This document shows positions 12,122 through 18,720 of a DNA stretch of 64,000 bases, one piece after another. Origin of the DNA: Halorientalis regularis (GTDB lineage: Archaea; Halobacteriota; Halobacteria; Halobacteriales; Haloarculaceae); NCBI RefSeq assembly GCF_023698535.1, contig NZ_JALJCL010000006.1, positions 62,001-126,000 on the forward strand, written 5' to 3'. Position 1 is the first letter of the stretch; each line of letters starts with the position of its first letter. The position numbers and the translations under genes are program-made. Below the pieces are notes generated by a model. It saw only the letters and a program-made list of their open reading frames with translations, had not been told where the DNA came from and ran no database searches.

Positions 12122-15100
12122 ATGGATGACGAGCGACTATCTCGGCGAGAGGTATTACAGCGGGGGATGCTGCTAACCGGACTGGGTGTCACCGGCTCGG
12201 GCGATGCGATCGGCGTAGCTAGCGGTCGTGAGAAAGTCATCAGTCGACAGCAAATTTCGACCGACACCGACCAAACTGCCGAAGCTGCCCAGTCCACACA
12301 GTCCGGGTCGACATGGCCACAGTTTCAGTACGGTCCAGGGAACGGGGGGTCGCCATCGGCAAGTGGTCAGGCAGGAACCCAACAGTGGCGGTTTGGGACC
12401 GGCAACGTGTGGTACTCGTCGCCGGCGGTAGTGGATGGTACCGTCTACGTCGGGAGTGACGACAACAACGTGTACGCGCTGTCGGCGGACGATGGCACCG
12501 AGCAGTGGCGCTTTGATACTGGCAGCCCAGTAGAACAATCACCAGCGGTAGTGGATGGCACTGTCTACCTCGGAAGTTACGACAGAAACGTGGCACCGGA
12601 GAACGACGGCAATATGTACGCGCTGTCGGCGGACGATGGCACTGAACAGTGGCGTTTTGAAACTGGCGGCTGGATGATGTCGCCGCCAGCGGTGGTGGAT
12701 GGTACCGTCTACTTCGGGAGTTACGACAGAAACGTGTATGCACTGGCGGCGGCGGACGGGAGCGAACAGTGGCGTTTTGAGGCTCGTTACGCGGTGAGGT
12801 CGTCGCCAGCAGTGGTGGATGGCACCGTCTACATCGGAGATTCCAGCAACGTGTACGCGCTGTCAGCGGACGATGGTACTGAACAGTGGCGCTTTGAGGC
12901 TGGCAAACCTGGAGAATCATCGCCGGCAGTGGTAGATGGCACCGTATACATCGCGGGTATTGACAATATGTACGCGCTGTCGGCGGACGATGGCACTGAA
13001 CAGTGGCGTTTTGAGGCTGGCAACTTTGGAGGATCATCGCCGGCAGTGGTGAATGGCACCGTCTACATTCTGAGTAAGGGTAATGTCAGCAGCGTGTACG
13101 CGCTGTCGGCGGATGATGGCACCGAACTGTGGCGCTTTGAGGGTAGCTACACGGTAGACTCGTCGCCAGCGGTGGTGGATGGAACTGTCTACATCGGAGG
13201 TAAAGACGACGTGTATGCGCTGTCGGCGGACGATGGCACCGAGCAGTGGCGCTTTGATACTGGCAGCACTGTGATGTCGCCGCCGGTGGTGGTAGATGGT
13301 ACCGTTTATATCGGAGGTTACAACGATGTGTACGCGCTTCCGCAGGATGGACCCACGGTGATATTCAAATTGATGGGACGTGCCTCTCAAAACGCGCCAC
13401 TTATTGCAGGTGGCGGGGCAGCAATCGGCGCAACCGCACTTGCTGGATTGGGTATCCGACGGTACCGTCGTGGGAGTGATGAGCCAACGGATCCGATACG
13501 TACCGACAGTGGTGTCAACGCGTGGCCCACCTCCGGTCACGACCCAGGCCGAACAGCCGCCGTCGCCACGAAACCAGCCCCGGTTTCGAGCCCCGAGACG
13601 GCCTTCCAGTATCAGCCTGCGGACGGTGCCGTCGCCACGTCCCCCGTCGTCGCCGACGACCTTCTCTTTCTTGGAACGACCGACGACGAAATTCACGCGG
13701 TCTCGCTCGCCTCGAGAGACACCGAGTGGACGACCGCCCTCGATGGCGAAGATACGACATCACTGGCAGTCACTACAGACGCGGTTGTGGTAGCTACCGA
13801 CGACGGCGTCGAAACCTACCGAGCCAGCGACGGCGAGCACCGCTGGAGTGACTCACCAGGAGCAGTCCGGGATATCATCGCTGCCGACGCAATCTACACT
13901 GGCACTGACTACGGCATTCGGGCCTATGAAGCGGCTGGAGGCAGTCAAAAATGGCGGACCAGTCTCGATGGCAGCGTAAGTGCCATCGCCGTCGGCGAGG
14001 AGACCGTCTACGCTGCGACCGCTCGAGATGCCGCCGCGCTTGATACCAAGACCGGCAACCAGCAGTGGACCTGCGGCACAAACGGTCGCAACCCGACTCT
14101 TACCGTAGCTAAGGACGGGATCGTGGTGTCGACACGAGCGGGTGTCCGCGTTTACGACCCCGAAACCGGCGAACAGGTGTGGGCCAACGACGAGGGTGGC
14201 CACTCCACTGCGATCGCACTTGCGCACAGACGGGTCTACCAGACCACTGATACGGCAGTTCGGGCGCTTGAGGGCCGAACTGGCACCGAAATCTGGCGCA
14301 CCGCTATCGACGCCACGACTGGTCCGCTGGTCATCGGCGACACCGTCTACGTCGGCACCGAAGACGATCTGGTTGCTCTCGACGCCGAGGACGGCGAATA
14401 CCGGTTCACACATGACCTGCCCGGTGTGTTGGGTGAACTGGCGGTAGTCGGGAACGCAATCCTGTGCCAGACCGGCGACGGCACACTCACGATTGTCACT
14501 GGCAATCTCGACGAGGCACCGGAACTACACGCGACCATACAGGCCATGGCCGACGAGGCAGACGAAACCGCCGACGAGAACGCAGGAGCGACTGGCACCG
14601 ATCAGGAGACGGTGCCGGACAGTATGGCCGGCCGCTTCGCCCGTGACTGTGACGCTATCGAGGTGGACGACAGCGTCAGCACACGTGGCCCGGTCCACGT
14701 GTACGACGGCCAGTACGTTGACCAGCAGGGCGAAACCGACGCACGAATCTACGCGCTTGCACCCGAATACGAGGCAGAGGAGACTGCTGTCGATGCGTTC
14801 GAGACCGCGGCCCGGGAGTGGCAGGGCATCAGCAAGAACACCCACGTCACCACCGTTTACGACACCGGAGGCGAGCCCCGTCCGTGGGTGGCCTTCGATG
14901 CGGGTGAGGGCCGGCTGGATGATCACCTGGAGTCACTGGATCGGCATGAGTGTATTGATACCATCGTCGATATCACCGAAGCGGCCCGCACCGGCAGCAT
15001 GTACAACGTCGTCCACGGGGATGTCTGCCTCGAGACGGTGTTCTTCGGGAGCGATCAGGCTGGTGAGCGTGTCGCAACGCTCGCAGACTGGGGTCTCCAG

Positions 15101-15430
15101 CGCGGAGTCGAGAGCTACAGCAACGACGCGATCGTCACGCCATATACGGCACCCGAACAACTCGACGGTAGAAGCAGCAGCGCGGCGACTGATATCTATC
15201 AGGTCGGCGCGCTAGCCTACCGGCTGCTGACCGGTGAGCCACCCTTCGCCGACGCTGCCGATCTGGAGGCTACCATCGTAAACGGTGATCTGACCCTGCC
15301 GACTACCGTGGACCCGTCGCTGCCTGCCGAGATCAACGAGATTCTCAACGAAGCAATGGCTGTCGATCCGGACGATCGACCCCAGCCATACGACTTCCAC
15401 CAGCGACTCGTCGCTACCATGGATGACTGA
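12122..15430 (+). CDS. Tat-exported eight-blade PQQ propeller protein with TM segment and kinase-like domain
   Basis: The ATG at 12122 gives 1102 residues starting with a twin-arginine signal (LSRREVLQRGMLLTGLG). Residues ~85-410 are eight blades of 39-48 residues with near-identical cores (SPAVVDGTVYIG, VYALSADDGTEQWRF), one blade carrying a short insertion. A membrane helix (~424-445, LIAGGGAAIGATALAGLGI) ends in RRYRRG, predicting the rest inside the cell. A second, diverged propeller (~490-790) and an acidic linker lead to a kinase-like domain (~845-1100) with ADWGL, VTPYTAPEQ and TDIYQVGALAYRLLTG. Its catalytic loop HGDVCLETV keeps the catalytic aspartate, unlike the paralogues, but lacks the lysine and asparagine of HRDxKxxN, and no VAIK lysine is seen (RIYALAPE). 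A signalling or scaffold role is inferred. Confidence 0.8.
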   Translation: MDDERLSRREVLQRGMLLTGLGVTGSGDAIGVASGREKVISRQQISTDTDQTAEAAQSTQSGSTWPQFQYGPGNGGSPSASGQAGTQQWRFGTGNVWYSSPAVVDGTVYVGSDDNNVYALSADDGTEQWRFDTGSPVEQSPAVVDGTVYLGSYDRNVAPENDGNMYALSADDGTEQWRFETGGWMMSPPAVVDGTVYFGSYDRNVYALAAADGSEQWRFEARYAVRSSPAVVDGTVYIGDSSNVYALSADDGTEQWRFEAGKPGESSPAVVDGTVYIAGIDNMYALSADDGTEQWRFEAGNFGGSSPAVVNGTVYILSKGNVSSVYALSADDGTELWRFEGSYTVDSSPAVVDGTVYIGGKDDVYALSADDGTEQWRFDTGSTVMSPPVVVDGTVYIGGYNDVYALPQDGPTVIFKLMGRASQNAPLIAGGGAAIGATALAGLGIRRYRRGSDEPTDPIRTDSGVNAWPTSGHDPGRTAAVATKPAPVSSPETAFQYQPADGAVATSPVVADDLLFLGTTDDEIHAVSLASRDTEWTTALDGEDTTSLAVTTDAVVVATDDGVETYRASDGEHRWSDSPGAVRDIIAADAIYTGTDYGIRAYEAAGGSQKWRTSLDGSVSAIAVGEETVYAATARDAAALDTKTGNQQWTCGTNGRNPTLTVAKDGIVVSTRAGVRVYDPETGEQVWANDEGGHSTAIALAHRRVYQTTDTAVRALEGRTGTEIWRTAIDATTGPLVIGDTVYVGTEDDLVALDAEDGEYRFTHDLPGVLGELAVVGNAILCQTGDGTLTIVTGNLDEAPELHATIQAMADEADETADENAGATGTDQETVPDSMAGRFARDCDAIEVDDSVSTRGPVHVYDGQYVDQQGETDARIYALAPEYEAEETAVDAFETAAREWQGISKNTHVTTVYDTGGEPRPWVAFDAGEGRLDDHLESLDRHECIDTIVDITEAARTGSMYNVVHGDVCLETVFFGSDQAGERVATLADWGLQRGVESYSNDAIVTPYTAPEQLDGRSSSAATDIYQVGALAYRLLTGEPPFADAADLEATIVNGDLTLPTTVDPSLPAEINEILNEAMAVDPDDRPQPYDFHQRLVATMDD
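12385..13350 (+). repeat. tandem ~115-145-bp coding repeats (propeller blades)
   Basis: Eight consecutive units share long identical DNA stretches such as GTACGCGCTGTCGGCGGACG and AGTGGCGCTTTGA, with variation confined to short inter-blade segments. The repeats in the neighbouring paralogue at 1066 are far less alike at DNA level. Confidence 0.7.
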
Positions 15431-15952: not shown

Positions 15953-17554
15953 ATGTCTGAATCGTTCACGAACCGTATCGCCTCGCAATACAGTCAGCGG
16001 GTCGGTGTCTCGCTGGCCGCGACGCTGGCTGTGACGCTCGTGTTGGGTACGATCTTCACCTACCACGCGGCGACCACCGGGGCCGCGGTGTCGGCGCTCG
16101 CCGGCACCATGTTCGTCATCGTATTGAACCTGGGCTTGCTGGGTATCGTCCTCGGCGGCAACGTCGGCGTCGAACTCCGCCGGCTGACCGAGGTGGCCGA
16201 GGCCATCGAGGACGGCGACCTCGACGTGACCCCCGAGTCCGACCGCCCCGACGAGTTCGGCGAACTGGCGGCCACCCTCGACGATATGCGACTGTCGCTG
16301 GACTCGGCATTCGAGGAATCAGAACAGGCCCGCGAAGAAGCCGAACAGGCCAGAAAGGAGGCCGAACAGGCCAAACGGGACGCAGAAGAGTTGACCGAGA
16401 CGCTGCTCGACCGGGCCGACGAGATCGGCGACGCGATGACCGCGGCCGCCGACGGCAACTTCACTCGATACCTCGACGACGACGCCGACGTGGAGGCCAT
16501 CGAGCGCATCCTCGTCGCCTACGAGGAGATGGCCGACGGCCTCTCGGTGACGGTCGACGATATCCAGGACTTCGCGTCCGAGGTCCAGGAGGCCAGCGAG
16601 GCGGTCGCCGACGACGCCGCGACGGTCGAGGACCTCAACGGCACGCTGGCGACGGACATCCGCGACCTCGCCGAGGACATCGGCGATCAGGCCGAGCGAC
16701 TGGACGCGGCCGTCAGCGAGGCCAACAACCTCTCGGCGTCGATCGAAGAGGTCGCCTCGACGACGGACGAAGTGGCACGTCAGGCCTCGGACGCGGCCGA
16801 GGTCGGCGAAACCGGGGCCGAACGCGCACAGCAGGCCATCGAGGCTATCCGCGAGGTCGAAGACGCCGTCGAACGCCTAGGCGAACAGGTCGGCGCACTC
16901 GACGACCGGATGGACGAGGTCGCGGCGACGACGGACCTCATCGACGAGATCGCCGAACAGACCAACATCCTCGCGTTGAACGCCAACATCGAGGCCGCCC
17001 GCTCCGGCGAGGCCGGCGACGGGTTCGCCGTCGTCGCCGACGAGGTCAAGGAACTCGCCCAGGAGACACAGGACTCCATCGACGAGATCGAGGACATCAT
17101 CGCGGGCGCGCGGACGGACGTCGATACCGTCACCGACGAGATGGCGGCCACGCGCGAGCGGATCGACACGAGCGTCGACAGCGTCACGGAGACGGGCGAG
17201 ACGCTCGAAGAGTTGATCGACACCGTCACCGACGTGGACAGCGCGATGGGCGAGATCGCCCGCGCGACCGAGGACGGTGCGGCCGCCACCGAGGAAGTAG
17301 CCGCGACCGTCGGCGACGTGCGCGACGCGGCGGCCGACGTGGCCGAGCGCTCACACTCGCTGGCCGACACCGCCGACGAGACCGCCGAAACCATGCAGGA
17401 CGTTCGCGGGCGCGCGGACGACCTCGCGAGTCGGACCGCGGACCTCCAGGGCCGGCTGGCGACGTTCGAGACCCGGAACGTGGGCGACGCGAACGACCAC
17501 GGGATGGGCGACGCGACCCACGCGGCTTCCAGCGTGGGTGGTAGCGATGATTAG
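15953..17554 (+). CDS. HtrII-like two-TM chemotaxis/phototaxis transducer
   Basis: The 533-residue protein has the compact layout of sensory rhodopsin II transducers. Two membrane helices (~18-40 and ~46-69) are joined by only a few residues, so there is no periplasmic ligand domain; then come a HAMP domain (~70-121), a heptad linker ([20 protein letters not shown]), a second HAMP-like segment (~148-205) and the methyl-accepting hairpin with the tip motif [22 protein letters not shown]2 reads [12 protein letters not shown]; from memory, this matches the N. pharaonis HtrII segment containing the receptor-contacting Asn. It should signal to CheA/CheW. The stop overlaps the start of the seven-helix gene, as in htr-sop pairs. 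Confidence 0.85.
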
Positions 17555-18287
17555 CGCCGCGACGGTTTACGCCGCCAGCGCCGCCGTCTACGCCGTCGTA
17601 ATCGCAGGGCTCGTGCTGTGGCTCCGCCGGATTCCCGACGCGTATCGGCAGTACTGTCTCCCGGTCCTCGGCATCGTCGTGATCTCGGGGATCGCAGTGG
17701 CGCTCGATGCAGCGGGAATCGGCACCGTCGTCGTGAACGAATACGCGATCACGATCCCGAGTCTGCTCGGCGACCTGATCGCCTACCCCGCGCTGTGGGC
17801 AGTCGCGGCCCTGTTGGCCGGCGTCGACCGGCGACTGTTCGCGATCACGATTGCGCTCCCGTTCGCCCAGCGAGCCGCCTTCACCATCGCCGCGATCACC
17901 GGCGGCCTGGTCGCGCTGGTGATGCTGGCCGTCCTCGTGGTCGGACACCTCGTCTTGCTGTATCTCTACCGGAATCAGATCTGGGAGGCGGCCCAGTCGG
18001 TTTCGGAGGAACAGCGGCTCCTCCACTGGAAAGCCCGGAACCTGCTGCTGTTCCTCATCGGGATGATCATCGTGTCGGCGGTACTGGGACTGGTCGGATT
18101 GTTCGACAACTTCGTCAGTTCGGTGCTGACCCAGTACATGAACCTCCTGATCCGCGCGGGCTTTGCCGGCTTCCTCTTTGCCAACGTCACGAACATCGAC
18201 GTCGGCGACGCGGCCGGTGGCCTCCTCGACGAGATCGGCGGGGCGAACGACGCCGGCGGATCGACGAATCCCGGCCCCGCCGACTGA
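17547..18287 (+). CDS. opsin-fold seven-TM protein lacking the retinal lysine
   Basis: The ATG lies inside the transducer's stop (ATGATTAG, 8-base overlap); GTG 17538 is a less likely start. The 246-residue product has seven hydrophobic helices and aligns nearly without gaps to sensory rhodopsin II as I recall it. [10 protein letters not shown] (89-98) matches LLAGLDSREF at the C-D loop, Pro81 is kept, RNLL begins helix F and Y197-M-N-L-L-I-R203-A-G-F matches Y199-L-D-L-V-T-K205-V-G-F. The Schiff-base lysine is Arg203, the helix-G Asp is Asn199, the counterion Asp75 is Gly75, Arg72 is Ser72 and Trp76 is Asp76; the helix-F pocket aromatics are also gone. Retinal binding is therefore unlikely. 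The retained Tyr197, which contacts HtrII in the known complex, suggests it still pairs with the transducer. Confidence 0.75.
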
Positions 18288-18288
18288 G

Positions 18289-18720
18289 TCAGTTCCCGCC
18301 GCTCAACGCCTCGTTCAGCCCGTCGACCGGAATGACGGAGTAATCGACAGTGAGCGTGTCCTTCGTCGCTCGGATCTTGCCCACGAAGGTAGAGATGTCC
18401 TCCAGGGAGCCTTCGAGGATGAACAGTTCCATACAGTACGCGTCGCCGACGTGGTTGTGGACGTTCGACTGGACCAGTTCCTCGTGTTGGTGGCGCAGAT
18501 GCATCATCCGCTCCTCGACGCTGGTGGTCTCGTAGTTGAACAGAACGGTGACGACGCCCATCAGCCGGCGATCCTCCAGCCGACGGTCCTCGAACTCTCC
18601 CAGGAGGTTGCGCGCGGCTTCCCTGACGACTTCGCTGCGGCCCGTGTACCCGTGGCCGTCCGCGAACTCGTCGATTCTGTCGAGTTGTTCGTCCGGCATC
18701 GACACGCTGACGACGGTCAT
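18289..18720 (-). CDS. nikR: NikR-like nickel-responsive ribbon-helix-helix regulator
   Basis: The 143-residue protein starts with a ribbon-helix-helix domain ([32 protein letters not shown]) followed by an ACT-like metal-binding domain. The high-affinity nickel ligands of NikR are all recognisable: the histidine in HLRHQHEEL, the HNH pair in NVHNHVGD and the cysteine in YCMELF. It should bind nickel and repress nickel uptake or urease-related genes; a NicO permease and urease lie ~18 kb away. Convergent with the opsin-like gene (one base between stops). Alternative: a general CopG-family regulator for another transition metal. Confidence 0.85.

Follow-up and report, generated by a model that had tools for sequence, protein, structure and literature searches.

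In sensory rhodopsin II (SRII), retinal is bound to a lysine of helix G, Lys205, whose protonated Schiff base forms a salt bridge with Asp75 that is broken by light. Opsins that have lost this lysine were described by Becker et al. in 2016 (PLoS ONE, PMC4915679), who collected 48 of them from 80 haloarchaeal genomes and called them opsin-related proteins (ORPs). The residue at site 205 is Arg in group A of the ORPs and hydrophobic in group B according to their text; group A further carries W76D, Y174L and W178A, conserves Y199 and D189, and in 15 of 16 cases adjoins a gene for a HAMP/MCP transducer (PMC4915679). The ORPs were found to be transcribed, the protein went undetected by the authors in native hosts, and two purified ORPs, including the group A protein of Halorubrum distributum, showed no retinal absorption at 480-580 nm when expressed; taxis to a non-light stimulus was proposed (PMC4915679). 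Microbial rhodopsins without the retinal lysine also occur as the marine betaproteobacterial Rh-noK and the FArhodopsins (PMC10308929), which differ from the protein described here in being kin of xanthorhodopsin and proteorhodopsin, in having no transducer, and in being functionally recovered or thought to help a pump.

The window analysed here, a stretch of 64,000 nucleotides from Halorientalis regularis, contains an Htr-type transducer gene that runs into a gene for a seven-helix SRII homologue, in the overlapping manner of htr-sop pairs that the preliminary description had reported. The features are as follows.

15953..17554, + strand: gene for the Htr-type transducer, 533 aa, with its TAG stop at 17552-17554
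17538, + strand: GTG from which the opsin reading frame is already open, upstream of the ATG at 17547
17547..18287, + strand: gene for the group A ORP; 246 aa with the ATG as start
17547..17554, + strand: 8-base overlap of the transducer stop with the opsin start, read from the sequence
17772..17774, + strand: codon (gac) of Asp76, which by alignment stands in place of Trp76, a retinal-packing residue; proposed to pair with Arg203
18135..18137, + strand: codon (tac) of Tyr197, equivalent to NpSRII Tyr199, which contacts the Asn of transducer TM2
18153..18155, + strand: codon (cgc) of Arg203, by alignment at the position of NpSRII Lys205

The overlap implies co-transcription. The pair is a further member of the published ORP group A class and not a new kind; a lysine-less opsin coupled to an Htr had been presented as something not known before, a claim that falls because the class, the substitutions and the pairing are already in Becker et al. 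2016 (PMC4915679). With group A the locus shares Lys to Arg, Trp76 to Asp, a small residue for W178, a replaced Y174 (usually Leu), the retained Tyr199 and the adjacent HAMP/MCP transducer; it differs in having Ile rather than Leu at 174, and its host genus Halorientalis is unnamed in the text of PMC4915679. With the N. pharaonis SRII/HtrII pair it shares the overlapping genes, the fold, the transducer TM2 and HAMP and the Tyr199-Asn contact, whereas the retinal lysine, the counterion, Arg72 and the pocket aromatics are gone and identity of the opsins is about 25%. Group B of Natrialbaceae is likewise lysine-less, keeps Tyr199 and is transducer-linked at many loci, but it has a hydrophobic residue at 205, Gly at 75 and retained Arg72 and Asp201, and forms a separate clade (100/98).

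Descent of the seven-helix protein from rhodopsins was supported by comparison with known structures. A phmmer search of the PDB gave significant matches to sensory rhodopsin II entries only (best E 1.7e-8), covering residues 24-211 almost without gaps, as had been claimed for the alignment to SRII. Of the searches that bear on the suggested check, phmmer thus showed significant similarity to SRII; Pfam PF01036 gave no match at E<=1, and the Pfam and NCBIfam searches assigned no family, so that a simple annotation pass would miss the gene. An AlphaFold2 model built from a 38-sequence alignment (mean pLDDT 90.5, pTM 0.82) shows seven helices and, as in rhodopsins, a B-C beta hairpin, and in a Foldseek comparison of this model with the PDB the top 18 matches were all SRII, most at an rmsd of about 2.2-2.5 A. 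The protein has a seven-helix rhodopsin fold closest to that of SRII and lacks the retinal-binding lysine of helix G.

The substitutions named in the preliminary description were all recovered in an alignment anchored on NpSRII, in which NpSRII numbers are read against window residues. Around the Schiff base and counterion, K205 becomes R203, D201 becomes N199, D75 becomes G75, R72 becomes S72 and W76 becomes D76, and in the pocket W171, Y174 and W178 are replaced by Ile, Ile and Ala; P81, Y199 (as Y197) and the Asp at 189 are retained. Position 174 is Ile in the window opsin and its two nearest relatives and Leu in nearly all other members of group A, from every one of which the pocket aromatics are gone. 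The lysine position holds Arg in every one of the 31 distinct group A sequences; position 80 is Tyr throughout, position 175 is Ile or Val, and the Arg72 and Asp201 of SRII have been lost. Thirty of the 31 have an acid at 75 or 76, and this acid and Arg203 are the only strongly conserved charges in the middle of the membrane. Tyr199 is invariant across all ORP groups.

A survey of 293 genomes of the same order, in which matches with E below about 1e-19 were called group A (the residues agreed for the sequences fetched), located an Arg-bearing group A opsin in 35 genomes of five families. In a tree of 97 opsins, from which the published Becker sequences were absent and for which members of the Halorubrum-like family f4 serve as presumed stand-ins, all 31 distinct sequences of group A, the window opsin among them, fall into a single clade (100/100) that lies outside the lysine opsins, themselves one clade (100/99). 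The lysine-less proteins group together against the lysine opsins with 100/99, at a join for which the tree tool warns of long branches. The nearest named records are from Halorientalis persicus (99% protein identity) and H. pallida (82%). A transducer gene lies directly upstream on the same strand at 33 of 34 examined group A loci, usually overlapping the opsin gene by 4-17 bases, with some larger overlaps due to upstream alternative starts. The support that the preliminary description had asked for, a conserved lineage that always lacks the lysine and keeps the interface, was found, and neither of the outcomes that it held to speak against the idea, absence of rhodopsin similarity or close homologues with lysine, appeared in the phmmer search and the 293-genome survey. 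The sole group A copy among the 34 loci without an adjacent transducer is L055 (G148 C1:2563227-2563880), and its genome holds a second, normally paired copy (L062).

Between Halorientalis relatives the opsin gene shows dN/dS of 0.20-0.39 (NG86) and is under purifying selection, and group A reading frames are open throughout with two exceptions, a split copy in G281 and a flagged stop in G113. These values bear on the notion that the window simply carries a single degenerate SRII copy from which the lysine was lost. Many core residues do differ from SRII, as decay would have it, but the Arg does not vary among 31 distinct sequences from five families, dN/dS lies far below 1 and nearly all frames are open; this leaves the notion next to no probability, and the survey (one 100/100 clade in 35 of 293 genomes) rules it out.

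Whether the pair could still be a photoreceptor, holding retinal non-covalently or using another chromophore, was weighed against the distribution of retinal genes. The Brp/Blh family is commoner with group A (30 of 35 genomes, against a background of 171 of 293), so group A and the retinal enzyme are not mutually exclusive, and seven lysine opsins are encoded in the genome of the window; both observations would suit a light sensor. However, in five group A genomes (G098, G191, G104, G136, G269) the Brp/Blh family (PF15461) has no match and lysine opsins are absent, as PF01036 gives no hit in four of them and its only hit in G098 is a lysine-less protein with His; group A thus persists without the means of making retinal. 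The loss of the pocket aromatics in all members and the lack of absorption at 480-580 nm by purified ORPs with retinal (PMC4915679) also stand against a light sensor, which we consider very improbable. Conservation in five families, the invariant Arg, the lost pocket and the kept interface together support the view that the pair no longer uses retinal. To this extent the earlier proposal of a pair re-purposed for a signal other than light is supported, whereas its novelty is not.

The transducer consists of two TM helices, a short loop, a HAMP domain (Pfam, 7.9e-12) and an MCP signalling domain (MCPsignal, 5.2e-40) with an intact hairpin tip, and its N-terminus matches NpHtrII chains in phmmer over TM2-HAMP (E 3.7e-13). 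The Asn of the NpHtrII TM2 motif INLG is retained as LNLG, and the features of the HtrII type are present, including the Asn facing the receptor; the HtrII layout and TM2 Asn reported earlier hold good. In a tree the group A transducers form one clade, and their distances correlate with those of the opsins (Mantel r 0.95, p 2e-4), a shared inheritance that could partly mirror the species tree. A fair number of group A pairs, though not the majority (L036 and L038-L042, for example), have His instead of Asn at the TM2 position facing Tyr199, and the receptor Tyr is invariant. CheA is found in 35 of 35 group A genomes and in 221 of 293 overall, an excess with a hypergeometric p of 2.5e-5 (3e-4 if the more complete genomes serve as background), by a statistic that ignores kinship.

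Taken with the loss of the retinal site, group A ORPs and their cognate Htr proteins very probably constitute retinal-free receptor-transducer units in which the opsin is the input module. The presence of the Htr and lysine-less opsin pair is itself confirmed. Most likely, the opsin-like protein would be the input module of a 2:2 membrane complex resembling SRII/HtrII, in which a non-light stimulus would rearrange its helices F and G, a change relayed to the transducer by Tyr197 and the TM2 Asn or His, and the signal would travel through HAMP to the MCP tip, CheA and the archaellum; we infer the 2:2 assembly, the direction of signalling and the taxis output. Against it stands that neither a stimulus nor a behaviour nor a complex is known to have been demonstrated for any ORP; the literature searched, which included works citing PMC4915679 and covered a minority of the subscription journals, contained no report of a stimulus.

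A passive role for the opsin has to be considered as well. Many transducers themselves act as sensors, and the opsin-like protein may be a constitutive partner that stabilises or biases a transducer sensing the cytoplasmic or membrane state. That no ligand is known, that the retinal pocket has no obvious conserved polar replacement and that few positions overall are invariant within group A would all agree with such a partner. The group A transducer, however, has a very short inter-TM loop and no extra sensory domain, and a passive scaffold would have less need of the sequence constraint observed and of invariant membrane-core residues such as Y80, R203 and N213. We therefore judge the constitutive partner improbable, and the opsin as input module is preferred.

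How the opsin as input module would work was considered from its conserved charges. Arg203 and Asp76, or an acid at 75, may take the place of the Lys-Asp salt bridge of SRII as a latch, which would be opened by a proton, ion or small charged ligand disturbing the Arg203-acid pair. Among lysine-less opsins an acid at 75/76 is present in 39 of 40 with Arg at 205 and in 2 of 27 without it; a phylogenetically independent test of the charge pairing found only 1-2 independent changes on the tree and was not significant. The Arg-Asp latch is thus a weakly supported, testable guess and not a result.

A second lysine-less opsin with His at the lysine site is encoded in the same genome (L075:2997-3752; G000 C45:122496-123248). 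It retains Asp75, Arg72 and Asp201, and a 742-aa Htr-like transducer is encoded 82 bases downstream. Its Arg-bearing relatives, nine distinct sequences of Natrialbaceae type from other families, form one clade (100/99), and at the loci examined their partners are transducers of roughly 750 residues; in the transducers of this third lineage HAMP begins near residue 290, and the stretch of about 240 residues that separates it from the N-terminal helix has no Pfam match. The His and Arg sets have no supported common clade in the 97-opsin tree. At least one Arg-bearing member (L081) scores 82.5 bits against the Pfam rhodopsin cut-off of 24.6, far enough above it that automatic annotation as a rhodopsin would follow. 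Judged by the text description of Becker et al., this Arg/His lineage seems to fall outside the two-group scheme of 2016. A wider proposal, in which this third set (Arg or His, with Asp75, Arg72 and Asp201 kept, Arg182 and longer transducers) joins group A in a salt-bridge latch kept across groups, as suggested by the acid at 75 or 76 that accompanies a basic residue at the lysine site in all of them, with Arg203-Asp76 as the site at which group A would respond to a proton, an ion or a charged ligand, is speculative and rather unlikely to hold as a whole.

Among microbes, retinal-free sensory opsins would correspond to the GPCRs that respond to signals other than light. Both the class and the idea date from the 2016 publication, so the window contributes a further member and not a discovery; new here are the five group A genomes that have neither a Brp/Blh family gene nor a lysine opsin, CheA in every group A genome and the third lineage. 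The survey reveals a widespread, conserved receptor-transducer unit that occurs also in organisms without a Brp/Blh family enzyme or a lysine opsin, and such organisms are the cleanest places to seek the stimulus.

Nine opsin homologues occur in this genome, seven with lysine and two without, located in L147-L152, L075 and the window at 17547-18287; the highest described number cited is six, in Haloarcula marismortui (PMC10308929). One of those with lysine (L152:1450-2478, G000 C33) is 342 aa long, has Gly where SRII has Trp76 and is only 38% identical to the closest sequence of the opsin set.

A comparison of neighbouring ORFs with an acidity filter detected no third gene common to group A loci beyond local synteny, in which a serine-pyruvate aminotransferase recurs in several relatives. 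A NikR-like regulator gene, recognised by eye at 18289-18720 on the - strand, is convergent with the opsin gene and, among the genomes examined, is a neighbour shared only with G098 of the same genus. The ORF at 12122-15430 encodes a 1102-aa protein that, by eye from the ORF list, has many PQQ-type beta-propeller repeats and an apparently protein-kinase-like C-terminal region.
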